Origin: Ignavibacteria bacterium
GTDB taxonomy: Bacteria; Bacteroidota; Ignavibacteria; Tepidaquicellales; Tepidaquicellaceae
Length of the DNA stretch: 45,964 nucleotides
Reading direction: 5' to 3'
Assembly (NCBI GenBank): GCA_019187405.1
Contig: JABAQZ010000030.1
Span: forward strand, 1 to 45,964
Numbering within the stretch: the stretch's first letter is position 1; each line of letters begins with the position of its first letter. The position numbers were made by a program, and so were the translations under genes. The notes beneath the pieces are model-generated. The model was not told the origin of the DNA. It saw only the letters and a list, made by a program, of their open reading frames with translations, and ran no database searches. Of the stretch, positions 6,433 through 41,211 are shown one piece after another.

Positions 6433-8895
6433 ATGAAATCATTTAAAGAAAACTTACTAAAGAAAAAATTTCCAATTCTTATACTGTTGATGTTTGCATT
6501 TCTTAAAACATGTTTTGGACAAAATACTACAAATCAGGCAGTGACCCTCAACGGAACCGACGGCTACGTAGCTATACCAAATGCAACAACTCTGTGTCCG
6601 ACAACCGGACTCACAATCGAAGCATGGGTTTATCCGTCTGAAATTTCATCTACTGCAATGACAATCGTCAGTAAGAATTATTCAACATCGTACTTTCTCG
6701 GAATCGAATCATCCGGAAGAGTATTCTTTAATCCTATTGGCTCTGCTACATTTCGCAGCAGGGAGACGAGTACAATCCCTGTTAACAAATGGACACATAT
6801 TGCCGGAACTTACGACGGTAGCACAACGACGATTTACATTAACGGACAATTAGATACTTCGACTGTTGAAATTTGGGGAGACGTTGGTGTGAACAGTGAT
6901 TCGTTATTGATCGGAGCAGATAGATTTTTGGGTTCGCTTATCTGGCACTTTAAAGGAAAACTTGACAATGTAAGAATCTGGGGAACTGCAAAGACAGCGG
7001 CAACGATTCAGCAAAACAGATTTATTCCGCTTGAAGTTTTTTCACCGACAGGGCAATATACAAACCTGCGTGCAAGTTTTCAGTTCGACGGTGATTTAAT
7101 AAACTTCAGCGGGATTGGATTTAGCGTGCAAGGATATCCCAGAGGAGGCGCAACTTTCGAGAATTATTTAAACAAAGCCGTAAATTATATGGATTACAAT
7201 AACAGTCTCGTGCTAAATGGAACGACAGATCACTTTACGGTAGCAAACAATTCATCAGCCGGTCTTAATCCGACATCGGAGATTACACTTGAAGCATGGA
7301 TCAAAAGAGACATGACAGGTGTACAGCCTACGGCGCAAAGCATTGTCAATAAAAGCGGCGGCACATCGAGAGTTGATTATTGTTTGGTTCTTTTTTCGAA
7401 TGGTCAGATAGGGTTTGGATTAAATTCAGAAACCTTCTTCATTCAGACACCTTCGCTCGTAACAAATTCCGAATGGACTCATATTGCCGCGACGTACAGC
7501 ACTATAACGGGTACCGGGATTATTTATGTTAATGGTAATCAGGCAGCCACCGGAGTTTTTCCGGGATTTCCGCTTATTCACAATAATATGGATAACCTTT
7601 ATATTGGAGGAGCAGGAGCTACTGATTATTCAAGCAGTCGTTTCAAAGGACAAATTGACGGAGTGAAAATCTGGAGCTCGAAGAGGTCATTAACTCAAAT
7701 CAGAGAAAACATGTATAAGGGAAATACATTTGAAGCAGGGCTTACGCATTTTTATTTTGATAAATATACAAATGCAATTTATGCCGGAGGAGTCAGAATT
7801 TATACTGCCAATACCTTTGCAGGCTCAGCTCACATAAGCTCCTCTCATTTAAATAAAAACAATGAGCCAACATCTCCAATGCTTCGTGATCAGACAGGCG
7901 GATTCTATTCTGAAAATTTTACAAGCAGCTATAGAAGATTTTACGTTCCTGATCATGATGCGGCAGGCATAACAGACTCTATTTATATCGCCGGTGCCGG
8001 GACGGTTTCAAATTTAAAAGTTTATGTAATGATGAATCACACTTATACCGGGGATATGAAACTTGAACTTACTTCGCCAAACGGAACTATGAGATATCTG
8101 CTCGACCGCAAAGGCGGTAATGGAAATGATATCTTTACAATATTTTCTGATGCGGCAGATTCTGTTGCGGCAATTTATTCCGACTTTAATGGCAACGGAA
8201 TTACTGCGCCATTCAGTCCGTCCATTAAACCTGACCAGCTGTTGTCTTCGTTCACAGGACAAAATAAAGAGGGCTGGTGGAAGATTCGTTTTATTGATAA
8301 TGAAAATGGAGACATCGGATACGTTCACGGATGGGGACTCAATCTCATAAGCTCCCCTGAAAGTAATCTGAAACTTACTGCGTTCATTCAGGGATTCTAT
8401 GACAGTCAAACTTTGAAAATGAAACAGGATACAATGAAAGTATTTCTTAGATCAGTGATTGCACCTTACAATATTCTTGATACATCAAAGGCGCTTGTTG
8501 ATTCCACGGGAACCGGTAATTTTAAATTTAAAAATATTTCCACCGGAACAGCTTTTTTCATTGTTGCAACTCACAGAAATTCAATCGAGACATGGAGTTC
8601 GACAGCCGGAATTTTTGGTACCGATACTTTGGAATTTGACTTTTCTACTGCATCAGGGCAGGCATTCGGTTCAAATCAGATTTTTAAAGGAGGCAGATAT
8701 TGCATATACAACGGTGACACAAATCAGGATGGTATTGTGGATGCAACCGATTATGCTTTAGTTAATAACGACGCACATAATTTTAGCCAGGGATATCTAA
8801 AGACTGATATGAACGGTGACAATGTAATTGATGCAAGCGACGCAGTTTTAGTTGACAACAATGCAAATAATTTTGTAGCAAAGATTACACCGTGA
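6433..8895 (+). CDS. Secreted LamG x2 / P-domain / dockerin protein
   Basis: The 820-residue product starts with a signal peptide (about 1-29). Two LamG/concanavalin-like domains follow: about 33-225, with TIEAWVYPSE and WTHIAGTYDG, and about 250-440, with TLEAWIKRD and WTHIAATYS. Residues about 490-640 resemble a proprotein convertase P-domain (MNHTYTGDMKLELTSPNGT, then EGWWKIRF and HGWGLNL). The C-terminal part repeats the module seen in other exoproteins here: AFIQGFYDSQ, HRNSIETWSS, DFSTASGQAFG, then dockerin loops DTNQDGIVDATD and DMNGDNVIDASD. There is no protease catalytic domain, so the P-domain is not processing a linked enzyme. LamG domains suggest carbohydrate or matrix binding, but no ligand can be named. 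It ends at the dockerin without a T9SS sorting domain. Confidence 0.88.
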   Translation: MKSFKENLLKKKFPILILLMFAFLKTCFGQNTTNQAVTLNGTDGYVAIPNATTLCPTTGLTIEAWVYPSEISSTAMTIVSKNYSTSYFLGIESSGRVFFNPIGSATFRSRETSTIPVNKWTHIAGTYDGSTTTIYINGQLDTSTVEIWGDVGVNSDSLLIGADRFLGSLIWHFKGKLDNVRIWGTAKTAATIQQNRFIPLEVFSPTGQYTNLRASFQFDGDLINFSGIGFSVQGYPRGGATFENYLNKAVNYMDYNNSLVLNGTTDHFTVANNSSAGLNPTSEITLEAWIKRDMTGVQPTAQSIVNKSGGTSRVDYCLVLFSNGQIGFGLNSETFFIQTPSLVTNSEWTHIAATYSTITGTGIIYVNGNQAATGVFPGFPLIHNNMDNLYIGGAGATDYSSSRFKGQIDGVKIWSSKRSLTQIRENMYKGNTFEAGLTHFYFDKYTNAIYAGGVRIYTANTFAGSAHISSSHLNKNNEPTSPMLRDQTGGFYSENFTSSYRRFYVPDHDAAGITDSIYIAGAGTVSNLKVYVMMNHTYTGDMKLELTSPNGTMRYLLDRKGGNGNDIFTIFSDAADSVAAIYSDFNGNGITAPFSPSIKPDQLLSSFTGQNKEGWWKIRFIDNENGDIGYVHGWGLNLISSPESNLKLTAFIQGFYDSQTLKMKQDTMKVFLRSVIAPYNILDTSKALVDSTGTGNFKFKNISTGTAFFIVATHRNSIETWSSTAGIFGTDTLEFDFSTASGQAFGSNQIFKGGRYCIYNGDTNQDGIVDATDYALVNNDAHNFSQGYLKTDMNGDNVIDASDAVLVDNNANNFVAKITP

Positions 8896-9429: not shown

Positions 9430-11599
9430 CCAGCATCATCTTCTTCACTTGCTGAAATCCATTAGCTGTAATTTTATAAAAATACATCCCGCTCGACAAA
9501 TGTGATGCATCGAAGTTAATTGAATGTGTTCCAGAGTTTAATTGTTCATTTACCAGCACCGCAACTTCCCTACCCGAAATGTCATACACCGAAAGTTTTA
9601 CAATTGATGAATTCGGGATTGTAAATTTGATTGTTGTTGACGGATTGAAAGGATTCGGAAAGTTGTCTTCCAGTCTAAAAGATTCATTGACATCTTTTGC
9701 TGTTTTAGTCTCAATCATCTGAGTGCTTCGGCCGCTTAATGGTGGCTCATCCATCGGATTTCTTGAAACAATCATCTTAAAAGCATTATTGTCGACTATT
9801 AAGAAATCACTTCCATCAGTTACTAAATCTCCATTGATATCAGATGTAACATATCCGGTCAATGAGCTCAACACGGAATTGTCCATAAAGGATAAATCTG
9901 CCCCATCGATTACTTTATCCTGATCGCAATCTCCGCTGAAAACGCAATGTCTGCTTCCTTTTAATACCAGATTATTTCCGAATGCTTGTGATGAGCTTGT
10001 CGTGAAATCATAATCAGCAATTCCATTAGTTATCAATATCCCGCCACTACTCCAGGTTTCAACCGAATTTCTATGTTTTACCACTATATAATATTGGGAT
10101 CCCGGAGAACTATTATTAAAAATAAAGATTCCTTTTCCTGCTGAATCAAGTGTAGTCTTAGCAGAATCCGATATTCCAAAAGGTGGAGTCGTATTCCTCA
10201 ATAAAACTGTTACAGAATCGCGAACCATTTTGTCAGTAACTGAATTATAAAGACCTTCTATAAGTGCAGTGAGTCTTAAACCTGATTGAGAATACTTTAC
10301 GGTCGCAAGTTTAGAGGTTGACGATGCATCCGGGCTCTTACCTACTACATAAACGTTTCCCGAATTATCGATTTTCATCCCATTCAAAGTATATGCGGCT
10401 GTTGGGCTTCCGTATATTTGCAGCCAATTCTGATTTCCGTCTTTATCGTATTTTATGGTTGCAAAATTTTCAAATGAACTTTCACAACTCAGACCTGCAA
10501 CATAGATGCTACCCATCTCATCAACTTCAATTGCTTTTCCATAATCACCGTTATTTGCTCCGGCACCGTCATATCTACTTACCCATTGTTCCACACCATT
10601 TGGATTATACTTTACTGTGGCAAAATCATAGTTTCGTCCCGAGCAACTTGTACTTGCGCCAGTCACAAAAACATTTCCTGAACCGTCTACTGCAAGTGAA
10701 GTTGCAAAATCACTCAAGTATCCGTTGCATGGTCCGTTGTAACTTCTAATCCATAAAGAATCACCTGTTGTTGCATTAAGCTTCATGGTTAAATAATCTC
10801 CGCCTGTTCCCGGCGTTCCATGCACCCCGCAGACGAAAACATTTCCCGAATTATCCGCCTTTACAAAACTGCCTTCTGATCCTATTCCGGGAAGTCCAAT
10901 GTAATTATTAATCCATTCCAGGGTTCCTCCCGAATTGTATTTGATTGTTACGACATTCAATCCGGTTCTTCCGGTTGTATAAGAGTTACCGTTTTTATCC
11001 ACATCAAATCCTAACACAAAGTCGTTTGCAGTTCCGGAACTATTGTATGTCTGTGACCACTGTAAGACTCCGCTGGAATTATACTTTATTACAATATTAT
11101 CAAAACCAGTGCCGGGTGTTACTTGAGAATGTCCTGCGACATAAACATTTCCGGAATCATCAAGTTTTAGCTTGGGTGTATAATCCTCAAATCCTCTGTG
11201 AAATATTCTTGTCCATAGCGAATCGCCATTGGAATTAAATTTGATAACAAGTGCATTCATGCCTGTTGGATTGCTGTAAGTAGTGCCACTCATTATTACA
11301 TTTCCGGCATTATCCACGGCTACACAATATCCTCTGCTGTCAGGACCATTTTCATATTTTCTCTCCCATAAAATGCTGCCTGCCGAATTGTATTTAACCA
11401 GATAGGCGGCTCGATCCCAAACTATCCCGACTGAATAAACCATTCCGTTATTATCGACAGCAACCGAATGACCGATGGCGCAGCAATACCCGGGATAAGT
11501 ACTTTCTGTAGCCCACATTTGTGTGACCTGAGCGTTGCTTGAATATGCTGATACTAATAATGTTATCAGCATTGCTATTACCAATTTTAGTGTTTTCAT
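9422..11599 (-). CDS. Secreted SBBP propeller, dockerin and T9SS sorting domain
   Basis: From the ATG at 11599 the product has 725 residues: signal peptide MKTLKLVIAMLITLLVSAYS and following, then SBBP repeats over about residues 30-430 (blocks such as NVYVAGHSQ, FDNIVIKYNSSG). A transthyretin-like domain with KHRNSVETWSS and YDFTTSSSQAFGNN comes next, then a dockerin (DCDQDKVIDGADL and DINGDLVTDGSDF). The last about 80 residues are a type A T9SS sorting domain with FPNPFNPSTTI, YDISGREVAVL and YFYKI. The frame continues 24 codons upstream to ATG 11671, which has a strong AAGGAG ribosome site. I prefer 11599 because it places the signal peptide at the N-terminus and its upstream AAAAGGAAAACAAGG resembles that of the gene at 16142. 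The dockerin has a degenerate first repeat tail (MDNSVLSSLTG). Confidence 0.85.
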   Translation of the reverse strand: MKTLKLVIAMLITLLVSAYSSNAQVTQMWATESTYPGYCCAIGHSVAVDNNGMVYSVGIVWDRAAYLVKYNSAGSILWERKYENGPDSRGYCVAVDNAGNVIMSGTTYSNPTGMNALVIKFNSNGDSLWTRIFHRGFEDYTPKLKLDDSGNVYVAGHSQVTPGTGFDNIVIKYNSSGVLQWSQTYNSSGTANDFVLGFDVDKNGNSYTTGRTGLNVVTIKYNSGGTLEWINNYIGLPGIGSEGSFVKADNSGNVFVCGVHGTPGTGGDYLTMKLNATTGDSLWIRSYNGPCNGYLSDFATSLAVDGSGNVFVTGASTSCSGRNYDFATVKYNPNGVEQWVSRYDGAGANNGDYGKAIEVDEMGSIYVAGLSCESSFENFATIKYDKDGNQNWLQIYGSPTAAYTLNGMKIDNSGNVYVVGKSPDASSTSKLATVKYSQSGLRLTALIEGLYNSVTDKMVRDSVTVLLRNTTPPFGISDSAKTTLDSAGKGIFIFNNSSPGSQYYIVVKHRNSVETWSSGGILITNGIADYDFTTSSSQAFGNNLVLKGSRHCVFSGDCDQDKVIDGADLSFMDNSVLSSLTGYVTSDINGDLVTDGSDFLIVDNNAFKMIVSRNPMDEPPLSGRSTQMIETKTAKDVNESFRLEDNFPNPFNPSTTIKFTIPNSSIVKLSVYDISGREVAVLVNEQLNSGTHSINFDASHLSSGMYFYKITANGFQQVKKMMLVK

Positions 11600-11856: not shown

Positions 11857-12412
11857 TTTATTTTATAAGAACCATTCTCTTCTCTGATGTAAAGCTTTGT
11901 CCGCCGTTGTGCACCGATATCCTGTATAGATATACTCCCGTTGACAGATTTAATGCATTGAATTCAGCTGTGTGATACCCTGCAGACTTGTATTCATTCA
12001 CAAGTGTAACTATTTCCTTTCCGGTCATATCGTATACTTTCAAACTTACATTTGCATCAACAGGAAGATCATAATTAATCTTTGTTGACGGATTGAACGG
12101 ATTCGGATAGTTTTGTGATAAGCTGAATTTCTCCGGTGATCCGACTATTACTTCATTTGCAAGATTGAAGTATTCAAAGTTTCCGTTATAATCAATCTGC
12201 TTCAGTCTGTAATTGTATTTCCCCTGATCCAGTCCTCTGTCGGTGAAACTGTAATTTTTCATTTCATTGGTTGTACCATTTCCGCTCACATAGCCGACCT
12301 TTTTCCAATCGACCGGTGTCTGTGGATTTACATCTGATCTTTCTACTTCAAATCCTGAATTGTTAACTTCACGAACTGTGCTCCAGTTTAATGTAACATT
12401 GCTTCCGCTGAC
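11857..12412. repeat. 556-bp direct repeat C, copy 1 (C-terminal coding block)
   Basis: This block matches 14597-15152 without gaps and with only about half a dozen substitutions. It encodes the last about 185 residues of two otherwise different secreted proteins: the end of a fibronectin-like segment, a linker and the T9SS sorting domain. Similarity ends abruptly at the start of the GSNVTLNWSTVREV segment and again at the stop codon. Confidence 0.92.
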
Positions 12413-14323
12413 ACTCGAGATAAATGATGCAAGTTCAACAGGCAAAGCGGAATTATTTCCGCCAAATGCTACAGCAATCGGTGAACTAAATAATGGTCCT
12501 GCATTCACTAGAGAAGATCCTGTCCATCTTCTGTAACTAATTGCTGCTGTTCCTGCAGCATTCTGTATTCCGACAGTATGAGATCCAAGATTATATGCTT
12601 TATATTTTTCTATGAAAAGACTTCCCGTCAATACGTCATTATACTGATAGATTATTATTCCGTCTACTACCGGTCCAGGCATCGTTTCCAATATTACCTG
12701 GAAAGTTATATAATCTGTCGGAAGCACAGCTCCATAGTTTGGAATCTTATCATAAGTAAAAATTAATTTTGATCCGCTGACTTTATATGAAATTCTATTT
12801 TCCGGAACATCTGCATCTGAAAGGTTAAAATCTTTCCACATCGGAAACAGTCCTGGCTGAATTGCACTTGTACTTGGAATTGACAATGTGCTATTGTCAT
12901 CAAGTTTCGATGAATTATTTGTTTGTGTTAATCCGATAAGCCCATTTGTTGAAATAAAAAATGAATCATAGTTAATTCCATTAAATCTAAAATAGTCTCC
13001 CGATGGAAGAATATTGCCAAGACTCCAGTAACCGTCATCAAGAGTCCCAGTAAATATTCCCGAAGCGGCATTTACTCCGTTAACTACAAGACTTGTACTT
13101 CCTGTTGTATCTTCCCAGTAAAAAGTCGGAGTACTCGGAGCAATAGAACCGCAGGAAGTATTGTTTGCATAATAATAAGTGCTGGGGGTTAATGTAGAAT
13201 AACCGTAACTGGAATTTCCAGCTAAAGTATAACTCCCTTCAATTCTATCATTCGCTGTATTTGCATCACATACTGCAGAAGAATAAATCCAATAATCAAA
13301 ACCTATTGACGTCGATAATGGGTCAAATGTAATATCAGCATATTCTCCGGGATCTAAACTTGGAATAACTTTTGTACTAAAGTAATATGTACTTGGAGAA
13401 AAAGGATTGTTTCTATAAGTAACACTTATGTTGGTTTGAGTAGTTGTTCCTACATTCTGAAACCTTGCTTTCGGTCCTGTCAAAGCACAGTCTTCAATAT
13501 CTTTATAAGGATATAAATTAACTACAGCACGAATATCACACGAAGCTGCAGGAAATCCAAATCTTGTTTCTGGCCGGAAATTTGAAGATGATCCTATAGC
13601 ACCGGGAAGTGAAGTTGACTGGTAAGTAAAAATATTCCCTCCGGAATTCGAACATGATACTGTGGGAGTATTAGCAGCAGCCAGCACAGCATCGGTTGTT
13701 TTATAGACATAAATTATTATTACTCCGTTTCCAGGGGTGTAAGTATAAGGAGAAGTACCGGGACCACCAAATGGTAAATCAATATCAATTTCATTAAACC
13801 CGGATGGAATTGTTATAATCCCGTCATAGACTTTTGTGAAACCGGTTCCCATTGTATCAATGTAAGTTCCGCTAAGATTAAGTGCCGTACCAAGTGTATC
13901 CTTAATATAAATTCTTAAGTTTCCTGTTGTAGTTACACCTTGACTTGTCGGCGCTCCGGCTCCGATAGGATTATTCCATGTCCATCCGATTGATGTGAGG
14001 AGTAATGGAGAAGTTCCCAACACACTCATTTCAGAACCTTTTATTATATATCTGCAGTTATTAAATCTCTTACTCCCCTGAGGAGCTCTTGCGTTTGTTG
14101 AAGTAGAGTTGTTATTTTTTAAAACCGTAGTTAATCCGACCCCTCCTAAGTTAGCATCTGTAATGTTATTACTTCCGGATGAGTACATTGAATTCTGATT
14201 ATTAAATGCTGCATCTCCGTATTCATTTGTCAATACAGAATTAGTTTTATCCTGTGAGATTGAATTTGAATATGATACAAATGATAATATTATAAAGAAT
14301 AAAGTAATTAATTTCGTTTTCAT
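11858..14323 (-). CDS. Large secreted T9SS cargo protein, function unknown
   Basis: The 821-residue product starts with a signal peptide (about 1-24). Residues about 90-250 form a beta-rich region with GSEMSVLGTSPLLLTSIGWTW. Residues about 260-370 resemble an adhesin/CARDB-like beta domain (CDIRAVVNLYPYKDIEDCAL and following). Residues about 380-620 are another beta-rich region with WSLGNILPSGDYFRFNGINY. A fibronectin-like segment begins at PVELASFISSVSGSNVTLNW, and the last about 85 residues are the T9SS sorting domain (SLSQNYPNPFNPSTKI, YDMTGKEIVTL, GVYLYRI). No catalytic motif is visible, so a surface adhesin is possible. The terminal 185 residues are nearly identical to those of the next gene upstream on this strand. 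Confidence 0.82.
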   Translation of the reverse strand: MKTKLITLFFIILSFVSYSNSISQDKTNSVLTNEYGDAAFNNQNSMYSSGSNNITDANLGGVGLTTVLKNNNSTSTNARAPQGSKRFNNCRYIIKGSEMSVLGTSPLLLTSIGWTWNNPIGAGAPTSQGVTTTGNLRIYIKDTLGTALNLSGTYIDTMGTGFTKVYDGIITIPSGFNEIDIDLPFGGPGTSPYTYTPGNGVIIIYVYKTTDAVLAAANTPTVSCSNSGGNIFTYQSTSLPGAIGSSSNFRPETRFGFPAASCDIRAVVNLYPYKDIEDCALTGPKARFQNVGTTTQTNISVTYRNNPFSPSTYYFSTKVIPSLDPGEYADITFDPLSTSIGFDYWIYSSAVCDANTANDRIEGSYTLAGNSSYGYSTLTPSTYYYANNTSCGSIAPSTPTFYWEDTTGSTSLVVNGVNAASGIFTGTLDDGYWSLGNILPSGDYFRFNGINYDSFFISTNGLIGLTQTNNSSKLDDNSTLSIPSTSAIQPGLFPMWKDFNLSDADVPENRISYKVSGSKLIFTYDKIPNYGAVLPTDYITFQVILETMPGPVVDGIIIYQYNDVLTGSLFIEKYKAYNLGSHTVGIQNAAGTAAISYRRWTGSSLVNAGPLFSSPIAVAFGGNNSALPVELASFISSVSGSNVTLNWSTVREVNNSGFEVERSDVNPQTPVDWKKVGYVSGNGTTNEMKNYSFTDRGLDQGKYNYRLKQIDYNGNFEYFNLANEVIVGSPEKFSLSQNYPNPFNPSTKINYDLPVDANVSLKVYDMTGKEIVTLVNEYKSAGYHTAEFNALNLSTGVYLYRISVHNGGQSFTSEKRMVLIK

Positions 14324-14423: not shown

Positions 14424-14605
14424 TACACGTTTTGTTTAATGTACTCCGGCTGCGCGCCGCCGGAGTACAAATATTTTGTTCCTTCAAATTCACTTAATCT
14501 TTTTTTCAAAGAACAACATTGAATATTTTCTTTTTAATGAACAATAAATACTTAACTCCATTCTGCTGTTTTTTTACAGAATAATTTTATTGCCCGTTTA
14601 TTTTA
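14399..14605. repeat. 207-bp direct repeat B, copy 2
   Basis: Second copy of the 9223-9429 element in the same orientation, including the GC-rich 11-bp-arm palindrome and the small A/T hairpin. Its right end overlaps the left end of repeat C by the nonamer TTTATTTTA, which contains the stop codon of the gene at 14598. Confidence 0.88.
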
Positions 14606-15152
14606 TAAGAACCATTCTCTTCTCTGATGTAAAGCTTTGTCCGCCGTTGTGCACCGATATCCTGTATAGATATACTCCCGTTGACAGATTTAATGCATTG
14701 AATTCAGCTGTGTGATACCCTGCAGACTTGTATTCATTCACAAGTGTAACTATTTCCTTTCCGGTCATATCGTATACTTTCAAACTTACATTTGCATCAA
14801 CAGGAAGATCATAATTAATCTTTGTTGACGGATTGAACGGATTCGGATAGTTTTGTGATAAGCTGAATTTCTCCGGTGATCCGACTATTACTTCATTTGC
14901 AAGATTGAAGTATTCAAAGTTTCCGTTATAATCAATTTGCTTAAGTCTGTAATTGTATTTCCCCTGATCCAATCCTCTGTCCGTGAAACTGTAATTTTTC
15001 ATTTCATTGGTTGTACCATTTCCGCTCACATAGCCGACCTTTTTCCAATCGACCGGTATCTGTGGATTTACATCTGATCTTTCTACTTCAAATCCTGAAT
15101 TGTTAACTTCACGAACTGTGCTCCAGTTTAATGTAACATTGCTTCCGCTGAC
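14597..15152. repeat. 556-bp direct repeat C, copy 2
   Basis: Second copy of the block at 11857-12412 at a constant offset of 2740 bp with no indels. Differences are scattered single bases, for example in the CAATTTGCTTAAG segment. It supplies the whole C-terminal 185 residues of the gene at 14598. Confidence 0.92.
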
Positions 15153-16142
15153 TGTGGAAATGAATGAAGACATCTCAACGGGCAAAGGAATATCAGACAG
15201 GTATCTTGAAATTCCACCGTTATCTCTTACTGCCCAGATGAATAATCCGTGCGGGGATAAATTCATGTGGGTATATGTGCCGGTTGCTGTGTAATCGCTT
15301 GTCCAACTGCCGCCGTCATTTGTTGATTTATAAACGGATGAACCCCTGACATAGAACCATGTACTACCGGCTCCGGTTATACCTAATATATTACCTGTTC
15401 CTATTGCATTCACATTTGTCCAGTTGAATCCTCCGTTAGTAGAATAAAGCATGATATTGCCGCCGGTCATTAATCTTACACTAGAGTTTGCCCATACTGA
15501 CATTGAGTTTACAAGACCTGGCGTTGGATGTGTCAGTACCGTACCGTCTGCAAAAGGCTGATATATTCTTGTATTGTTGGTACCATAATAGATAAAGTAG
15601 CTTACACCATTCGGTTGACAAGCTGAATTATTCCATCCATACTCTCCGGGAGGAGCGGGATTGTATATTCCGGTGGAATCCCATGTGGTGCCAAAATCAA
15701 AACTAATAAATTGTGACCATCTTCCGCCCACAGGATCTCCATGCATACCACATACAGGAACTCCGTTGAATTTATTGATTGAATTTATAAATCCTCCGGG
15801 CTGATTGAATGTCTGTGTCCATGTCACGCCGCCGTCTGTTGTTTTGTAAACAACACCGGCTGTAAGACTTGCACCGCCGACTAAAGCAGTCATGGCATCT
15901 AAACCCCGAATGGTGTATAGACCTACAGAGGAATTTGGGGAATTTGTAACTATCCAATTAGTACCAGAATTGATTGTTCGTAAGACAACTCCGTTTTCAC
16001 CGCATGCCCAGACGACATTGTTATCCACTGCGGATACGGAATAAATTGCGGTAGTGATGCCTGATGACTGCTCAGTCCATTGTGCTGAAATGTTTCCTGA
16101 AAAACAAATGATACAAAATAAAGAAGTGAAAAATGTTTTCAT
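14598..16142 (-). CDS. Secreted BNR/YCF48-like propeller with T9SS sorting domain
   Basis: The 514-residue product has a signal peptide ending near SGNISAQ, then a beta-propeller of BNR/YCF48 type over about residues 25-320. Typical blocks are VLRTINSGTNW, VYKTTDGGVTW, FDFGTTWD, YSTNGGFNW and VYKSTNDGGSW. The fibronectin-like segment and sorting domain (NYPNPFNPSTKI to MVLIK) follow and are nearly identical to the 11858 product. In YCF48-like proteins the propeller is a protein-binding scaffold; in T9SS exoproteins its target is usually unknown. The upstream AAAAGGAAACAAAG just before the ATG is a plausible ribosome site. The downstream flank is repeat B, shared with the 9422 gene, so the 3' end is a mosaic. 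Confidence 0.87.
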   Translation of the reverse strand: MKTFFTSLFCIICFSGNISAQWTEQSSGITTAIYSVSAVDNNVVWACGENGVVLRTINSGTNWIVTNSPNSSVGLYTIRGLDAMTALVGGASLTAGVVYKTTDGGVTWTQTFNQPGGFINSINKFNGVPVCGMHGDPVGGRWSQFISFDFGTTWDSTGIYNPAPPGEYGWNNSACQPNGVSYFIYYGTNNTRIYQPFADGTVLTHPTPGLVNSMSVWANSSVRLMTGGNIMLYSTNGGFNWTNVNAIGTGNILGITGAGSTWFYVRGSSVYKSTNDGGSWTSDYTATGTYTHMNLSPHGLFIWAVRDNGGISRYLSDIPLPVEMSSFISTVSGSNVTLNWSTVREVNNSGFEVERSDVNPQIPVDWKKVGYVSGNGTTNEMKNYSFTDRGLDQGKYNYRLKQIDYNGNFEYFNLANEVIVGSPEKFSLSQNYPNPFNPSTKINYDLPVDANVSLKVYDMTGKEIVTLVNEYKSAGYHTAEFNALNLSTGVYLYRISVHNGGQSFTSEKRMVLIK

Positions 16143-33911: not shown

Positions 33912-36089
33912 TCATTCGCCGAATACATTCGGTATCTGATGAATTACTCTTCTGTCGGATAAATTCTTTACAGATGACTTTACGAAATTTGCATCTGTCG
34001 GAGCAGGTTCCGTTCCGGGGAGTAATATTGCTGACACAAAATTTGAAGCATTATTGTCAACAATAGCTGCATCTCCTCCATCAACAATTCCATCGTCATT
34101 AACATCAGTACTTAAATGACAACCGAGTGCAAAATTTGATGCATCATTATCTACTGGCGCTCCATCTCCTCCGTCAACAATATCATCCTGATTGACATCA
34201 CCATTAAAAATTTCATAAGGCGCAGCAGTTCCGGCGAGATTTCCTCCGTAAGCCTGCGATGGCGACGTGGTAAAATCATAAGTTCCCGTCGGCGCAGCAA
34301 AGCTTATCGGATTTGCGCTTTGCGTTCTGATTGAGTGTTTGGTTAATACTTCAAGATAATAGCTTCCACTTCCTATGCCCGGTCCAAAGTAAATTTTGAC
34401 ACAAGCTACACTTGTGGAAATTATCCATTCTCTCACTCTGTACCATGAGCAATCCCAGATTTCATAAGGAGGAATGGTGTATCTCAGCCAGATACATACT
34501 CTGTATGAATAACAGACAATTTCTTCTAACTTGAAATAAATCTGATAACATTTTTTACCTCCATAAAACTCATCGCAGCCTCTGTAAGTGAATAAATTAG
34601 TACTTGTAATTGCACGCGAATCTCCGTTAAAGTCAACACTTATTCCCGGAATTTCTTTTGCATCCATATTCGCACCTACATTTGATGTTAGTGAAAGTAG
34701 CGAAAGTGATACAAACTCAACGGGGATAAAAGCTGTATTCTGCTCCTGATCTGCATCACAGAGTGTATCTTTATAAGATTCCTGACCGCCAAAACCTCTG
34801 TAAACCGTTGTGTTATATCCTGCATCCCAGCCTCTTGACGTAGTATCCGTAGTAAATGAGATATTATGATCTGCTTCAACTGTTACACCGGGTGTTGGAT
34901 AATAAAGGAACTGTCCTACAAATAACGAATTAACTCCACCGTCAGTTCTGTCGTTTTTTGAAATATTATTGTAAACTTTAACAGTGCTTGGACCGGCAAC
35001 ACCGTCAATTCCTATCGGCAGACATTCAACATCAGCATCAGTAGTTCCGGAGCTCCCTGCTATTCTGATACTATTGTAATACACACCACATGAATAATTA
35101 GTTGTATTGGCATTTGAAGTAGGGTAAATTCCGTAAACATAAGTAGCCGTTGAAATACAGCTGTTTAAAGCCACCATGTTATTGCTCAATTCTATTGAAG
35201 TTACAGGAGTAATTATCGGAGCAGTAAAAGTTACAGGGATAGTAATTATACCTATAAATCCTCCTGCCACTGTTCCTGTCAGGTCATGAATCCAGTTTCT
35301 TCTTACAATGTTTGTTCCGCAGCCCTGAATATTGATTGCTCTTGATCCGCCGGGATCGTTTGGAACTGCAGCATCATGAAGTACTTGATTCATTTCAACT
35401 GTATTATCACTTACTTCAGAGCCGATAAAAATTCCAAGTGATGTAAAGTTTTTGATTGTACATCCTCTCACGGTTGTTCTTTCGTTTATATAAACTCCGG
35501 CAGTGCCGAAATTTTGGATTCCTCTTCGGAAACCGTTGGTGGTAACATTTTCAATTATGTTATCATTGTTACCTCCGGAACCTACAATAGATTGTCCAAT
35601 GTTTACTCCCCTGCCGCCGTTCGTTGCGCCGATTGCGCCAAGACCTACACAGGTAAGATTCATGATTCTATTGTTTGTTGCTCCGTTGGAACATTGAATA
35701 CCGTTAGCGCTTGTTCCGGCATTGGGATTAATTACCGTTAAAGAATGTCCTCCGGTATTAATTCCGTCTATTAAGACGTTATCTGCGCCGTTTAAATCTA
35801 TTACAGAAGCATTAAAGTTGCCTGAAACAGTTTGCGGACCTTGCGGAATTATAATGCAAGTTGCAAATACACCACCGAGTAAAGTAGCTGTACCAGGTTC
35901 AACGGTGCTACCTACAATAGTTACTGTTATTGCTCCTGCTCCGTGAGCTCCTCCGTTTATAGCCGCAAATGCAGCTTGTAAAGTAGGATATGTAGCGGGA
36001 ACGGGATTGACGTTTACGTTTTGCGCAAACGAATTTAAGTTCATTGCAAAAAGCAAAGCAATGACCGAAAGAGAAAATAATTTCTTCAT
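33912..36089 (-). CDS. Secreted beta-helix protein with dockerin tail
   Basis: The 725-residue product has a signal peptide (about 1-22). Residues about 25-430 form a right-handed parallel beta-helix, with YPTLQAAFAAINGG at the start and many short strands such as NRIMNLTCVG, NIIENVTTNGF and NTVEMNQV, as in pectate-lyase-like or adhesin helices. A Cys-rich beta domain (about 510-600, with KLEEIVCYSYRVCIWLRY) replaces the usual HRNSxETWS domain: here the line reads TKHSIRTQS. It is followed by YDFTTSPSQAYGGN and a dockerin (DVNQDDIVDGGD and DVNDDGIVDGGD). No NPFNPST domain is present; the C-terminus is a 35-residue tail. No polysaccharide-lyase catalytic residues could be identified. Confidence 0.82.
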   Translation of the reverse strand: MKKLFSLSVIALLFAMNLNSFAQNVNVNPVPATYPTLQAAFAAINGGAHGAGAITVTIVGSTVEPGTATLLGGVFATCIIIPQGPQTVSGNFNASVIDLNGADNVLIDGINTGGHSLTVINPNAGTSANGIQCSNGATNNRIMNLTCVGLGAIGATNGGRGVNIGQSIVGSGGNNDNIIENVTTNGFRRGIQNFGTAGVYINERTTVRGCTIKNFTSLGIFIGSEVSDNTVEMNQVLHDAAVPNDPGGSRAINIQGCGTNIVRRNWIHDLTGTVAGGFIGIITIPVTFTAPIITPVTSIELSNNMVALNSCISTATYVYGIYPTSNANTTNYSCGVYYNSIRIAGSSGTTDADVECLPIGIDGVAGPSTVKVYNNISKNDRTDGGVNSLFVGQFLYYPTPGVTVEADHNISFTTDTTSRGWDAGYNTTVYRGFGGQESYKDTLCDADQEQNTAFIPVEFVSLSLLSLTSNVGANMDAKEIPGISVDFNGDSRAITSTNLFTYRGCDEFYGGKKCYQIYFKLEEIVCYSYRVCIWLRYTIPPYEIWDCSWYRVREWIISTSVACVKIYFGPGIGSGSYYLEVLTKHSIRTQSANPISFAAPTGTYDFTTSPSQAYGGNLAGTAAPYEIFNGDVNQDDIVDGGDGAPVDNDASNFALGCHLSTDVNDDGIVDGGDAAIVDNNASNFVSAILLPGTEPAPTDANFVKSSVKNLSDRRVIHQIPNVFGE

Positions 36090-36315: not shown

Positions 36316-36346
36316 CCCCTCATACGCTAAATGTATTCCCCCATAC
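36316..36346 (+). promoter_or_regulatory. Possible activator site: direct repeat with 21-bp period
   Basis: The motif CCCYCATAC occurs twice in the same direction, ending at 36325 and 36346, exactly 21 bp apart (two helical turns). It lies in the 398-bp divergent region between the beta-helix gene and the lipoprotein/T9SS island, about 70 bp upstream of a possible -7 element. Such spacing is typical of direct-repeat binding sites for dimeric response regulators such as the LytTR type. No regulator gene is in the window. The rest of 36090-36487 shows no gene. Confidence 0.35.
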
Positions 36347-36412: not shown

Positions 36413-36420
36413 TAATTTTG
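36413..36420 (+). promoter_or_regulatory. Possible Bacteroidota-type -7 promoter element
   Basis: TAATTTTG fits the TAnnTTTG consensus used by the primary sigma factor of Bacteroidota. It lies 68 bp before the first ATG of the lipoprotein/T9SS island. A convincing -33 TTG at the right spacing is not visible. Confidence 0.3.
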
Positions 36421-36487
36421 TATCAGTTCTTTCGGATATATGCTAATTCAATTAACCAACAATTTTTTAAAATTAAACTTAAATAAA

Positions 36488-36913
36488 ATGACAAACTTCA
36501 AAAGTTCTTTATCAGTAATTGCAATGCTGATATCGGCTGTGATTACCGGATGCAGCGATAGTCCTTTATCCTTTAACAATCCGGAATCTTCAGCAATAAG
36601 TTCATCTTCGGAAACATTCGATGCCAATAGCAGACTGAGCACTTACTCCGAAAAAATAAAACTGAAATCAGGAGAATCTTTTACAATTACAAAAGAGCAG
36701 GCAAATCTCGTGAGTTTCAGAGAAGTAAGAGTATCAGAATGCAAGCCGGATGAAGTCAGGATCTGGTCAACGACAATTGATTCTGATCTTAGCTGTCACT
36801 GGTTCGGCTATAATGGTTTCGGACTGGACGATATAACAATAGAAAATACCGGAAAACTTAATAAAGTAATTGACTTTTCACTTTCCGGTGTAGCACTAAA
36901 ACCAACAAAATAA
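36488..36913 (+). CDS. Small lipoprotein A of the surface island
   Basis: The 141-residue product starts MTNFKSSLSV and has a lipobox ending VITGC (Cys22), so it is a lipoprotein. A Ser-rich linker (about 23-50) leads to a beta domain: KLKSGESFTITKEQ, VRVSEC, WSTTIDSDLSCHW and the near-terminal DITIENTG, then DFSLSGVAL. The Cys pair is spaced C-x17-C, probably a disulfide. The layout is shared with the lipoproteins at 40217 and 40731. The frame opens earlier, at 36440, but the ATG at 36488 places the signal peptide properly. The next gene, a T9SS cargo protein, follows after 33 bp. Function unknown; a surface or periplasmic partner of the cargo is inference. Confidence 0.72.
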   Translation: MTNFKSSLSVIAMLISAVITGCSDSPLSFNNPESSAISSSSETFDANSRLSTYSEKIKLKSGESFTITKEQANLVSFREVRVSECKPDEVRIWSTTIDSDLSCHWFGYNGFGLDDITIENTGKLNKVIDFSLSGVALKPTK

Positions 36914-36946
36914 TTTTAACAAAACAAAATCTTGAAAGGAAACAAA

Positions 36947-37900
36947 ATGAAAACCTTAAAGAATGTAACAAAGACGATAGCCCGTATATTTGCGGTATTA
37001 CTGGCGGCATTCATTCTTGTTCCAAAGAATAATTCAACCGCTCAGATTCATGAAATCTCTCTGAAGGTAAAAGTCAAAGCCGGAGTACAAGGGTACTTTA
37101 ATGCATCTACTGGAAAACTTTGCCGAGATGTTCCTATGCATGTCGAATTAAGACAATGTAAATCTCCGTATGATCTTGTATCAAGCACAGATATTTTAAT
37201 CGACAAAAATACAATGACGGCAATTGCAAATTTTGACATAGCCGAAAGCGAAACATATTACATTGTATTAAGACACAACAATGCACTTGAAGTATGGAGC
37301 AAAGACGGCGGCGAATTTCTTACAGCAGGAATTGTAAACGAATTTGATTTTACGTCCTCTGGAAGCGCTTATGGTGACAATCAATATGATAACGGGAAAT
37401 ACAGATTTATGTATAGCGGCGACGTTGACCAAAACGGAATTATTGACGGAGCAGATTTAGCTTTGGTAGATAATGCATTAACAGCTTTTGCTGTAAATGA
37501 TCCCAGTGACTTAAACGGCGACGGCTGGGTTGACGGCAGCGATCTTTTAATTGCTGAGGAAAACTCTACAAAGTACTTGGTCGTAAGCGCTCCTGAGGGA
37601 ACTGAAAACTCTTACGCTTCTTCCAATATTAAAAATCTTGATAGGAATTCAGGAACTAACTATCCTAATCCTTTTAATCCGACAACAAATATAGGATTTA
37701 ATCTTCCATCACAATCACAGGTAAATCTCTCGATATATGACATTACCGGAAGACTCGTGAAAACACTTGTAAATCAGATATTATCGTCAGGATATCATGA
37801 ATATAAATGGGATGCAGGAAACATGGCAAGCGGAACTTACTTCTATAGAATCACCTCTCCCGGATTTGAAGTTACAAAGCAAATGAACTTGATTAAATAA
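36947..37900 (+). CDS. Minimal dockerin protein with T9SS sorting domain
   Basis: The 317-residue product has a signal peptide (about 1-33), then only the shared C-terminal module. A transthyretin-like domain (VKAGVQGYFNAS, YYIVLRHNNALEVWSKDGG) comes first, then FDFTSSGSAYGDNQ, then a dockerin with DVDQNGIIDGADL and DLNGDGWVDGSDL. A short linker leads to the sorting domain (NYPNPFNPTTNI, YDITGRLVKTL, GTYFYRI). In other proteins this module follows a propeller, LamG pair or beta-helix; here nothing precedes it, so it may be an adaptor or anchoring unit. ATG 36947 is preferred because AAAGGA lies 6 nt upstream. It lies between two small lipoprotein genes. Confidence 0.83.
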   Translation: MKTLKNVTKTIARIFAVLLAAFILVPKNNSTAQIHEISLKVKVKAGVQGYFNASTGKLCRDVPMHVELRQCKSPYDLVSSTDILIDKNTMTAIANFDIAESETYYIVLRHNNALEVWSKDGGEFLTAGIVNEFDFTSSGSAYGDNQYDNGKYRFMYSGDVDQNGIIDGADLALVDNALTAFAVNDPSDLNGDGWVDGSDLLIAEENSTKYLVVSAPEGTENSYASSNIKNLDRNSGTNYPNPFNPTTNIGFNLPSQSQVNLSIYDITGRLVKTLVNQILSSGYHEYKWDAGNMASGTYFYRITSPGFEVTKQMNLIK

Positions 37901-37911
37901 TGTAAAGAACG

Positions 37912-37947
37912 ATTTATCCGGACCGGCTGAAACCGGTTCGGATAAAT
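37912..37947 (+). terminator. Strong hairpin after the minimal dockerin gene
   Basis: A 15-bp stem with one G-T mismatch (ATTTATCCGGACCGG at 37912-37926, its complement at 37933-37947) begins 12 bp after the stop. An A-rich, not T-rich, stretch follows on the plus strand, so it may stabilise or process the mRNA rather than terminate. The next gene follows 22 bp later. Confidence 0.6.
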
Positions 37948-37968
37948 AAAAAACTAAAAGGAGAAAAA

Positions 37969-38460
37969 ATGAAAAAGGTAATAATAAAAATAAATTTTCT
38001 GATTGCTGTATTCATATTCCTAAGCTCTATTCAAGGATGCGATAATTCAGTTTCACAAAAAACGGAATCGGAATCTTCAGGAAGTTCGGCCGGATTAAAC
38101 CATAAAGAAAACGGATCGGACATAAATTCAATAAAGATAGGAATGGAAATCAGTTTCGGAAAAAATTCTCTCAGCATGAATAAACTTCTCGAGTCAAACA
38201 TAGGAACGCATTTTAATAAAGTTACCAAAATCGATGCAAAGATTGCCCCGGGCAAAGAGTTAGATTTACAGGAAATCCAGCCAAACGGAATCTTTGGCCT
38301 TTTTCTGAATTCAAGCGATATCTTCATTCTAAAAAATTCAGATGGCATGATGTTTAACAGTAAATCATTGCTTCTCGAGAAATGCAGTTTTATAGATCTG
38401 ATAGTAATAAATCCAACCGCTGCTGAAATATCGATTACGGGATTTGTTGCAGGAGAATAA
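37969..38460 (+). CDS. Small lipoprotein B of the surface island
   Basis: The 163-residue product has a signal peptide with lipobox SSIQGC (Cys24) and a Ser-rich linker (about 28-42). The beta-rich domain contains KIGMEISFGKNSLSMNKLL, KIAPGKELDLQEIQ, MMFNSKSLLLEKCSF and the C-terminal LIVINPTAAEISITGFVAGE. It resembles lipoproteins A, C and D in general layout but lacks their paired cysteines, having a single late one. A perfect AAAGGAGAAAAA ribosome site precedes the ATG. It is followed after 34 bp by an SBBP/T9SS gene, so it is again paired with a secreted cargo protein. Confidence 0.7.
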   Translation: MKKVIIKINFLIAVFIFLSSIQGCDNSVSQKTESESSGSSAGLNHKENGSDINSIKIGMEISFGKNSLSMNKLLESNIGTHFNKVTKIDAKIAPGKELDLQEIQPNGIFGLFLNSSDIFILKNSDGMMFNSKSLLLEKCSFIDLIVINPTAAEISITGFVAGE

Positions 38461-38494
38461 TACAATAATTTTTTAAACTATTTATTTATAAAAA

Positions 38495-40189
38495 ATGAAA
38501 TACATAAAAATATATATAACACTGATAATGATTTTGGCAAGCATCGTCTCGTTTGATTTAAAAGCTCAGACGGTAGTATCCTGGATGCAGATTTTCAATA
38601 ATTCTGAATATACGAACCCTTATAAAATGATATTTGATAAGCAAGAAAACTTAATGGTATCCGGTATATCGAAATTTAATAACAAAGTAATTCTGCTAAG
38701 GTATTTACCATCGGGAAAACTTCAGGATAAAAATTTTCTGAGTCTTTTTAATTATTCTACTCTTTCGGGATTTCACGTAAGTCCGGATAACAGTATAATT
38801 ATTCAGACAAACCAAACTATACTGCCAAGTATAAACAATTTAAGTCTTCACAAAATGTCAAATGATTTCAAGTTCTCTAATGCCGTATTTTTCTCAGGTG
38901 ATAATCAATATGTAAATGGAAAATCTTCAGCCATAGATCCATACGGAAATATTTATGTCGCATGCGATTATATATCCAGCAACGGCGAATCGGTAATAAG
39001 TCTTTTGAAATTTTCCAAAGATTGTGAATTATTGTGGGAGAAGAAATGCTCCAATAACTCTTATAAAAATAATAAGGCTGTCTCGGTAAAATGTGATATA
39101 TATGGCTTTGTTTACATTGCAGGAATAAATAATCTTGACGGTACCGATCCGGAATTCTTTGTAAAAAAATTCAGCGAATCCGGCAAGAATTATTGGACAT
39201 CAAATATTGAAGGTGTATTAAATAATGATGATAATATTGTCTCGGTAGAATTGATGAACATTAAGACAGATGAAAAAAGCAATGTATATCTGGCAGGTTC
39301 GACGGGAGGAAATTTTGGGAAGGATATTTTTTTGGTTAAGTTAAATACCGAGGGAAACTTCGAATGGAATCGTGAATTTGATTTTACAAAATATTATTCC
39401 AGTCGGACAGTCAAAGGAAACAGAATATTCAGTGATTCACCATACGATATGGAAACCGACATTCAAGGAAACGTTTATATTACGGGAAGTTCAGAATCGA
39501 AAAAAGAAAGTTATTTAGTTACACTGAAATATGGAAGCAGCGGGAATGTGCAGTGGGCAAATTTTTATAAGTCTCCTTCATATTTAGAAAGCCAAAACGT
39601 TCCTGTTGATTTGTTCGTTGATAAATCGGGCAATTCATACATTACCGGCTATCAGAAAGCGCTTAACCTTCATGCAGACTTTGATCCAGGCAAAGACATT
39701 CTCACACTGAAATATTCATCCGAAGGTGCTGAAGTCTGGAGCGAAATCAAAGGCGGCGAAGGCGATATTGGTCATAATGATGATATCGGTAAATCAGTGC
39801 TCGTAAATGATAACGGTGATGCCTTTGTTCTCGGTCAGCTTTCCATATTTCCACAAACATCCGCTTATTGCATAATCAAATATGGCAGTCAAAATTCATC
39901 AACAGTTAATGCAAAAGATAGCAAAGAAAAATTCAGACTTAACAACAATTATCCGAATCCTTTTAATCCGTCAACAATTATTAGCTTTGAAATTCCTGAA
40001 GCAGCAAATGTATCTCTGAAAATTTATGACATCACTGGAAAAGAAATCTCTTCCCTTTTCAAGGGAATGCTAAACAAAGGATATCATGAGTTTGAATGGA
40101 ATGCTGCTCAGTTGTCAAGCGGAGTTTATTTTTATAGATTACAAGCCGGCTCTTTTACAAATACTAAAAAAATGCACTTAATTAAGTGA
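38495..40189 (+). CDS. Secreted SBBP-like propeller with T9SS sorting domain
   Basis: The 564-residue product has a signal peptide (about 1-24, ending near DLKAQ). Residues about 35-480 are SBBP-like propeller repeats (NIYVACDYISSNGESVISL, FVYIAGINNLDG, SNVYLAGSTGG, NVYITGSSES, NSYITGYQKA, DAFVLGQLS), less regular than in the 308 product. The last about 80 residues are a T9SS sorting domain: NYPNPFNPSTII, YDITGKEISSL, GVYFYRL. It has no dockerin or HRNSxETWS module. Target unknown. Lipoprotein C follows after 27 bp on the same strand. Confidence 0.85.
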   Translation: MKYIKIYITLIMILASIVSFDLKAQTVVSWMQIFNNSEYTNPYKMIFDKQENLMVSGISKFNNKVILLRYLPSGKLQDKNFLSLFNYSTLSGFHVSPDNSIIIQTNQTILPSINNLSLHKMSNDFKFSNAVFFSGDNQYVNGKSSAIDPYGNIYVACDYISSNGESVISLLKFSKDCELLWEKKCSNNSYKNNKAVSVKCDIYGFVYIAGINNLDGTDPEFFVKKFSESGKNYWTSNIEGVLNNDDNIVSVELMNIKTDEKSNVYLAGSTGGNFGKDIFLVKLNTEGNFEWNREFDFTKYYSSRTVKGNRIFSDSPYDMETDIQGNVYITGSSESKKESYLVTLKYGSSGNVQWANFYKSPSYLESQNVPVDLFVDKSGNSYITGYQKALNLHADFDPGKDILTLKYSSEGAEVWSEIKGGEGDIGHNDDIGKSVLVNDNGDAFVLGQLSIFPQTSAYCIIKYGSQNSSTVNAKDSKEKFRLNNNYPNPFNPSTIISFEIPEAANVSLKIYDITGKEISSLFKGMLNKGYHEFEWNAAQLSSGVYFYRLQAGSFTNTKKMHLIK

Positions 40190-40216
40190 ATTCATAAACC
40201 TAAAAAATTAGCAATC

Positions 40217-40654
40217 ATGAAAACCATAAAATCAATAACAGCAGCTCTGGTAATCTGCACAATGTTTATAATTACCGCCTGCAAAGAAAATCAAAATTCT
40301 CTTGTAACATCGGGAAGTCCGTCTGAAATTGGTAGAAACCCCGGAAATTCGGAAGTTCCTGTTTTTGAAACAGAAATTACCCTGAAACCCGGTCAGTCTT
40401 CCGACCTTACGGATAACATAAAAAATAAATCCATTTCAGGCTTGGAGATTCTCAATCTTTCAAATTACGGAAACATAGTTTGCAGTGATATCGGTATTTA
40501 TTTCAACGATAAAACTGACGGAGCTGATGAATATTTCTCTGCATGTCTTGCTCATCAGGAAATTTTCACTGTTACAAAACTGACAAAAGGAAATTATGTT
40601 AAAATTGAAAATCAATCTGAAAGAACACTGACGCTTCAAGTTAAGATATGGTAA
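40217..40654 (+). CDS. Small lipoprotein C of the surface island
   Basis: The 145-residue product has a lipobox FIITAC (Cys22) and a Ser/Gly/Asn-rich linker (about 25-50). The beta domain has ITLKPGQSSDLTDN, VCSDIGIYFND, YFSACLAHQ and the terminal VKIENQS, then TLTLQVKIW. The two cysteines are spaced C-x20-C, comparable with A and D. I do not recognise a named family. It ends 9 bp before a strong hairpin terminator. Function unknown. Confidence 0.72.
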   Translation: MKTIKSITAALVICTMFIITACKENQNSLVTSGSPSEIGRNPGNSEVPVFETEITLKPGQSSDLTDNIKNKSISGLEILNLSNYGNIVCSDIGIYFNDKTDGADEYFSACLAHQEIFTVTKLTKGNYVKIENQSERTLTLQVKIW

Positions 40655-40663
40655 TAAAAATCT

Positions 40664-40692
40664 GCATCGCGCATGCTTGTCATGCGCGATGC
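40664..40692 (+). terminator. Terminator hairpin after lipoprotein C
   Basis: A perfect 12-bp stem (GCATCGCGCATG at 40664-40675, CATGCGCGATGC at 40681-40692) with a 5-nt loop begins 9 bp after the stop. A weak TAAATAAAAAT stretch follows. It splits the island into 36488-40654 and a last monocistronic gene. Confidence 0.75.
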
Positions 40693-40730
40693 TAAATAAA
40701 AATTATTTAATAAACTTAAAATAAATTAAA

Positions 40731-41177
40731 ATGAACTGCATAAAATTAATAAAATCAGTTATTGCTGTATTAGCTGTCGCATTTACAACAGGCTGCAGCG
40801 ATTACATTACATCAACTGATTCAAGCTCAAATACATCAGCTTCAGTTTCAGCGCCGGTAAAACATGCAGGAACTATGGAAGTATATTGTAGATTAAAACC
40901 TTTTAAATCGGTTACAATCGACAGAGAAAACACAACTCTTGAAAGATTTTACTCTGTAAGAGTTAATGAAGAATCAAACGATATTAATGACACATATCAA
41001 GCTTCTGTTTGCGGGAAAATTTCGATCTCAGGTGATTCGGAAGTATCAACACAGACTTTGAATTGCATAAATACCGGATTTGATGTTTCCTCAATTACGA
41101 TCGAGAACAAATCCTCGGAATTATTAGATCTGCATGTAACAGTTACAGGCAAATTAAAACCAATCGATACAAAATAA
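40731..41177 (+). CDS. Small lipoprotein D of the surface island
   Basis: The 148-residue product has a lipobox FTTGC (Cys22) and a linker of Ser, Thr and Asn (about 25-45). The beta domain has EVYCRLKPFKSVTIDREN, YSVRVNEESN, SVCGKISISGD, TQTLNCINTG and the terminal SSITIENKSSE, then LDLHVTVTGKL. The Cys pair is C-x17-C, exactly the spacing of lipoprotein A. The ITIEN strand and flanking residues align with A and C. It is followed by its own terminator. Function unknown. Confidence 0.72.
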   Translation: MNCIKLIKSVIAVLAVAFTTGCSDYITSTDSSSNTSASVSAPVKHAGTMEVYCRLKPFKSVTIDRENTTLERFYSVRVNEESNDINDTYQASVCGKISISGDSEVSTQTLNCINTGFDVSSITIENKSSELLDLHVTVTGKLKPIDTK

Positions 41178-41182
41178 GATAA

Positions 41183-41211
41183 CAGCCCGGATCATACGGG
41201 CTGCTTTTTTT
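41183..41211 (+). terminator. Intrinsic terminator at the end of the surface island
   Basis: A perfect 7-bp GC-rich stem (CAGCCCG at 41183-41189, CGGGCTG at 41197-41203) is followed by C and seven T. It lies 5 bp after the stop of lipoprotein D and 14 bp before the end of the convergent CHAD gene. Confidence 0.92.

Follow-up and report, generated by a model that had tools for sequence, protein, structure and literature searches.

Four small lipoprotein genes interleaved with two genes for T9SS cargo raise the question of whether this locus encodes a surface system, and which of its parts belong together. We examined it in a window of 45,964 nucleotides (the whole stretch of DNA that was analyzed) from an Ignavibacteria bacterium with a 3.78-Mb genome, called G000 here; C1, C5, and C8 are other contigs of the same genome. 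A sequence-only reading of the window had proposed that the four lipoproteins form one undescribed family and that each has its own surface partner. Its gene calls are confirmed, as all six genes are open from 36488, 36947, 37969, 38495, 40217, and 40731 and all lie on the + strand.

The gene order is lipoprotein LP1 (36488–36913, 141 aa), a T9SS cargo gene (36947–37900), LP2 (37969–38460, 163 aa), a second cargo gene (38495–40189), LP3 (40217–40654, 145 aa), and LP4 (40731–41177, 148 aa). LP1 has a second in-frame ATG at 36440, and its signal peptide is obtained from the 36488 start. The genes are separated by gaps of 27–76 bp, and LP4 is followed by a hairpin with a T run that resembles an intrinsic terminator (41183–41210, + strand). 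This arrangement fits one operon, and 36488–41177 is probably a single transcription unit closed by the hairpin. Two strong inverted repeats also lie between genes on the + strand, one at 37912–37947 (15-nt arms, 93% complementary) and a perfect one at 40664–40692 (12-nt arms). Both lack a coding-strand T run and are possibly RNA processing or stability hairpins.

Visual inspection of the N-termini identified the lipoboxes ITGC, IQGC, ITAC, and TTGC in LP1 to LP4, at a position that is kept in homologues. By the criterion of a signal peptide plus a lipobox cysteine, all four are bacterial lipoproteins. LP1, LP3, and LP4 have a common layout consisting of lipobox Cys22, an LKxxxS segment (LKSGES, LKPGQS, and LKPFKS, respectively), C-x(17-20)-C, and a late [IV]xIEN strand (ITIEN, VKIEN, and ITIEN). 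LP2 has its lipobox cysteine at position 24 and a single late cysteine (KCSFIDL). These motifs had been described correctly from the sequence.

We then asked how the lipoproteins are related. Relatives were collected by a search with each protein followed by a profile search of related genomes, and signal peptides were removed before leave-one-out HMMs were built. The mature domains of LP1, LP3, and LP4 scored 52.6, 28.9, and 78.5 bits, respectively, and the maximum over 500 shuffles of each was 10.2. The resulting family A has 13 members: LP1, LP3 (the most divergent of the three in the window), LP4, and one gene each on C1 and C8 in G000, two in G011 (UBA2330), four in G022 (MAG-299), and two in G009 (SSF19). 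Any one of them scores 23–86 bits against a profile built from the remaining twelve (500 shuffles each, maximum 12.2), and C-x(15-21)-C is present in 13/13. LP2 scores only 3.6 bits against the family-A profile, which 20 of 500 LP2 shuffles reach as well, and hhalign gives a probability of 3% for A versus B with only the last strand pair aligned. At the sequence level, LP1, LP3, and LP4 are thus homologous in their mature domains and form one undescribed family, and LP2 belongs to a separate family B. The single family proposed earlier holds for three of the lipoproteins and fails for LP2. Four genomes carry exactly one family-B gene each; the four proteins are 41–53% identical, with a conserved LE[KR]CSFIDL. 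In G011, LP1 has an orthologue-like partner at 48% identity and LP4 has one at 35%. By comparison, ahcY identity among these genomes is ~90%, which indicates that family A is fast-evolving.

Searches of Pfam, NCBIfam, and PHROGs with the lipoproteins gave stray weak matches to single members only, and a profile search of solved structures gave a best E of 2.3. None of the libraries searched describes either family. A viral origin was also considered and set aside: family B has no relative in viral contigs, family A is too divergent for that search, and the viral fold matches are uncharacterized proteins at a TM of about 0.45. The alignments of A and B suggest no residue pattern that would point to catalysis.

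Next, we modeled both domains. The family-A model, built on LP4 with 13 sequences, has a pLDDT >90 over its core and eight strands; the family-B model, built on LP2 with four sequences, has a mean pLDDT of 75 and also eight strands. We looked for folds that differ from one another and found that both domains are predicted to be eight-stranded and jelly-roll-like, of the same general class. In family A, a disulfide probably staples the domain. PDB matches for both include jelly rolls as well as cupin-like sandwiches, mutually tied and all at Z ≤8.3, which is no better than the typical background stated for the comparison tool; we therefore assign no specific fold relative. For instance, GOLD domain 5gu5 aligns to A with a Z score of 7.6 (rmsd 3.1 over 85 residues) and to B with 7.1 (rmsd 2.6 over 80 residues). 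The Bacillus appendage subunit Ena1B (7a02) is among the matches for both. For family A it ranks first in Foldseek at E 1.6e-3, a weak lead with no PDB match at E 1e-3 or better, and Ena2A, Ena3A, and Ena1C are among the best 25 structure alignments. The LP4 model aligns to 7a02 over 93 residues with a Z score of 7.2 and an rmsd of 7.0, on a par with unrelated folds. Cohesins are known to bind dockerins; their absence from the structure matches listed excludes nothing.

How widespread is the locus? Of 294 class genomes, four contain family B, and only these four have full-length matches to family A; other family-A profile matches in the 294 genomes cover signal peptides or N-terminal stretches only. 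A scan of 84,980 species genomes with a family-B pattern returned only the same three genomes besides G000. As far as found, the module is rare and confined to one family of Ignavibacteria. The expected recurrence of lipoproteins with T9SS genes is borne out in these four genomes, as all four clusters contain T9SS-tailed genes. The order is LP1-like, cargo, LP2-like, LP4-like in G011; LP2-like, A, SBBP cargo, three further A genes, and a small secreted protein in G022; and cargo, kinase, regulator, LP2-like, two A genes, and a small protein whose sorting tail is weak in G009. The surroundings are comF/CHAD genes in G000, era/phosphatase-like genes in G011, and the interval between a response-regulator gene and ahcY in G009 and G022, so the clusters occupy at least three different genomic positions.

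The cargo genes themselves are readily classified. The product of 36947–37900, a stand-alone beta plus dockerin-like module, scores 43.8 bits to PF18962 (cut-off 27) and 41.0 to TIGR04183 (cut-off 23). The product of 38495–40189, an SBBP-repeat beta-propeller, scores 42.8 and 48.1 bits against the same models and cut-offs. Judged by these sorting-domain matches, both are ordinary T9SS type A cargo. Sorting tails of this kind number at least 150 per genome in every genome tested, so adjacency of lipoprotein and cargo alone is weak evidence and could be due to chance. G000 alone carries about 99 copies of the 36947-type module, and the 36947-type cargo of the G011 cluster is not G011's best match to the window's protein. 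The SBBP cargo behaves differently, as among the G022 proteins it matches the copy inside the lipoprotein cluster best (E 3e-37 vs 1e-19 for the next protein), and a best match inside the cluster of another genus argues for a real linkage between the lipoproteins and the SBBP cargo. The lipoprotein-to-cargo counts are 4:2, 3:1, 5:1, and 3:1 over the four clusters, and the two solitary family-A genes on C1 and C8 have no adjacent cargo. Together with the abundance of T9SS tails, these counts leave one-to-one pairing, as the sequence-only reading had it, unsupported.

Other secreted proteins in the window have related features. The beta plus dockerin-like module (37046–37651, with similar stretches at 8368–8895 and 9755–10276) occurs in about 60–130 copies per genome, most of which sit at an end of a larger secreted protein. 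The adjacent T9SS proteins at 11858–14323 and 14598–16142 are almost identical over their C-terminal ~190 residues, which suggests a recent duplication or gene conversion. A secreted protein at 33912–36089 on the − strand has a dockerin-like pair and an unusual Cys/Tyr-rich mid-stretch but no sorting domain; it is possibly diverged or frameshifted.

By comparing the upstream regions of the window cluster and the C8 family-A gene, we found a common 15-mer, TGTATTCCCCCATAC. It lies at 36332–36346 on the + strand, 142 bp upstream of the LP1 start codon, and a search of the whole G000 genome found exactly two copies, the second 130 bp upstream of the start codon of the C8 gene. The consensus for the −7 box in Bacteroidota is TAnnTTTG (PMC9723704), and a match, TAATTTTG, lies at 36413–36420 on the + strand, 75 bp past the C that opens the CCCC core. 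In G011, the LP1 orthologue is likewise preceded by this box and a downstream TATCAGTTCTTT. The distance from core to box is 73–76 bp in three promoters (G000, G011, and the G009 cargo). A relaxed version of the element, WCCCCYAYA, has six non-redundant matches in about 270 kb of sequence; five are intergenic and immediately precede cluster or family-A genes of G000, G011, and G009. It is found in 5 of 7 upstream regions, compared with 0.1 on average and never more than 2 over 2000 Markov simulations. These statistics are optimistic because the pattern was chosen after inspecting the sequences, a bias that affects the exact 15-mer count less. The G022 cluster has no clear copy of the CCCC element, and a sigma-70 promoter scan gave no more matches than shuffles. 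On C1, the stretch upstream of the family-A gene (L008 8957–9763) is filled with copies of a ATCACGGATTACACGGATT-type repeat.

A candidate for the controlling regulator comes from the neighboring genes. A Reg_prop/Y_Y_Y histidine kinase and a NarL-type regulator adjoin the G009 and G022 clusters, and such a pair is also found just downstream of the C1 paralogue; kinases of this type above the cut-off number only 2–8 per genome. The G009 and G022 sites are one ancestral site with the order kinase, regulator, ahcY, and the same order is found without lipoproteins in G000, G011, G012, G021, and G001. In the seven genomes examined, the interval between regulator and ahcY is empty or holds a small secreted protein or, in G009 and G022, the lipoprotein cluster. 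Three opposite-strand genes part the kinase from the regulator in G000. The G000 and G011 clusters have no adjacent kinase. Since the arrangement exists without the lipoproteins, adjacency is weakened as proof of regulation, and the link of the clusters to a kinase and NarL-type regulator is suggestive only.

Taken together, the locus is most likely a co-regulated outer-membrane lipoprotein/T9SS surface module. We observed the family relation, the co-conservation, the common promoter element, and the cargo signals directly; function, exposure, and kinase control we infer. Three family-A lipoproteins and one of family B would be anchored in the outer membrane via the acylated cysteine, each presenting a small domain, predicted to be jelly-roll-like, at the end of a flexible linker rich in Ser and Asn, with a probable disulfide staple in family A. 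They would be made together with two T9SS-exported proteins, one a beta-propeller, as a predicted operon driven by the TAnnTTTG promoter. The upstream CCCC(C/T)A(C/T)A would be a putative regulator site, and the candidate regulator is a NarL-type response regulator paired with Reg_prop/Y_Y_Y kinases like those beside the clusters of two other genera. Most likely, the lipoprotein domains would serve as binding or docking heads that act with the exported propeller in an inducible surface coat or binding layer. We hold this fuller picture of 36488–41177 as a co-regulated cell-envelope module only tentatively, although it is the reading that we favor. A bolder form of it is very doubtful, namely that A and B are lipid-anchored jelly-roll blocks that assemble with T9SS propeller and dockerin-like proteins into an inducible lattice or fiber, undescribed in any bacterium and switched via CCCC(C/T)A(C/T)A.

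Surface exposure is where a different account has most to say. In Capnocytophaga, the minimal surface-export motif is K-(D/E)2 or Q-A-(D/E)2 after the cysteine (PMC5080379). It is absent from the N-termini of LP1 to LP4, where the cysteine is followed by SDS, DNS, KEN, and SDY, each with a single acidic residue, so a periplasm-facing location is possible. The lipoproteins might then aid the envelope from within by holding or guiding T9SS cargo, or by protecting the outer membrane under kinase-sensed stress. The probable disulfide would suit the oxidizing periplasm, and the jelly-roll matches include a periplasmic lysozyme inhibitor. We nevertheless consider this account unlikely: the motif is that of Capnocytophaga and the export signal of Ignavibacteria may differ, and T9SS cargo is abundant in relatives of the four genomes that are without the lipoproteins, which argues against a role as general secretion factors.

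The same abundance bears on a view that we find rather improbable, in which a fast-duplicating, lineage-specific lipoprotein family has no fixed partner and T9SS genes adjoin it since they are ubiquitous. The many sorting tails and 36947-type modules, the three to five lipoproteins per cluster, the solitary copies on C1 and C8, and the G011 36947-type cargo all fit it. Yet the SBBP cargo is orthologous across differently placed clusters, family B is always present and always single-copy, and the promoter element is common to clusters. Finally, family A could form lipid-anchored fibers or a lattice of packed jelly-roll subunits like Ena appendages. Its tandem paralogues with flexible N-terminal arms and the Ena matches above are in keeping with this, but the structural scores (Z 6.7–7.2) are shared with unrelated jelly rolls, sequence similarity and the N-terminal Cys-Cys connector are missing, and the N-terminus is a lipid anchor, making it the most improbable of these proposals.

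For the favored reading, a co-regulated outer-membrane module, what is new is two undescribed lipoprotein families tied to T9SS proteins by conservation across genomic places and by a promoter element. Should the lipoproteins prove to dock cargo or to form a coat, they would offer a route for retaining T9SS products beyond the known lipopolysaccharide anchoring. The four-genome range limits general importance, and the surface biology of the phylum is almost unstudied.

Among known systems, the locus differs from SusCD-type utilization loci, with no SusC or SusD match among the six cluster proteins. Ena endospore appendage subunits (7a02, 9i0y, 8pdz, and 9t3p) have a small jelly-roll past a flexible N-terminal arm, a plan that is predicted for family A, and both have clustered paralogues; Ena subunits are linked to other subunits through an N-terminal Cys10-Cys11 connector (PMC8619143), whereas only the lipobox cysteine precedes the domain in most family-A members. 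The host here is Gram-negative, a lipid anchor stands in place of the connector, and the fold match is unspecific. Reg_prop/Y_Y_Y and NarL-type pairs lie next to two clusters and one of the solitary family-A genes, but they also stand beside ahcY without lipoproteins, and none is at the window cluster. The sorting domain of T9SS type A cargo is present in the two exported proteins and absent from LP1 to LP4. The LES lipoproteins of Bacteroidota differ in their export signal and in that the domains here have no Pfam or NCBIfam match, yet both have a lipobox, an acylated cysteine, a linker, a small domain, and co-encoded secreted surface proteins.
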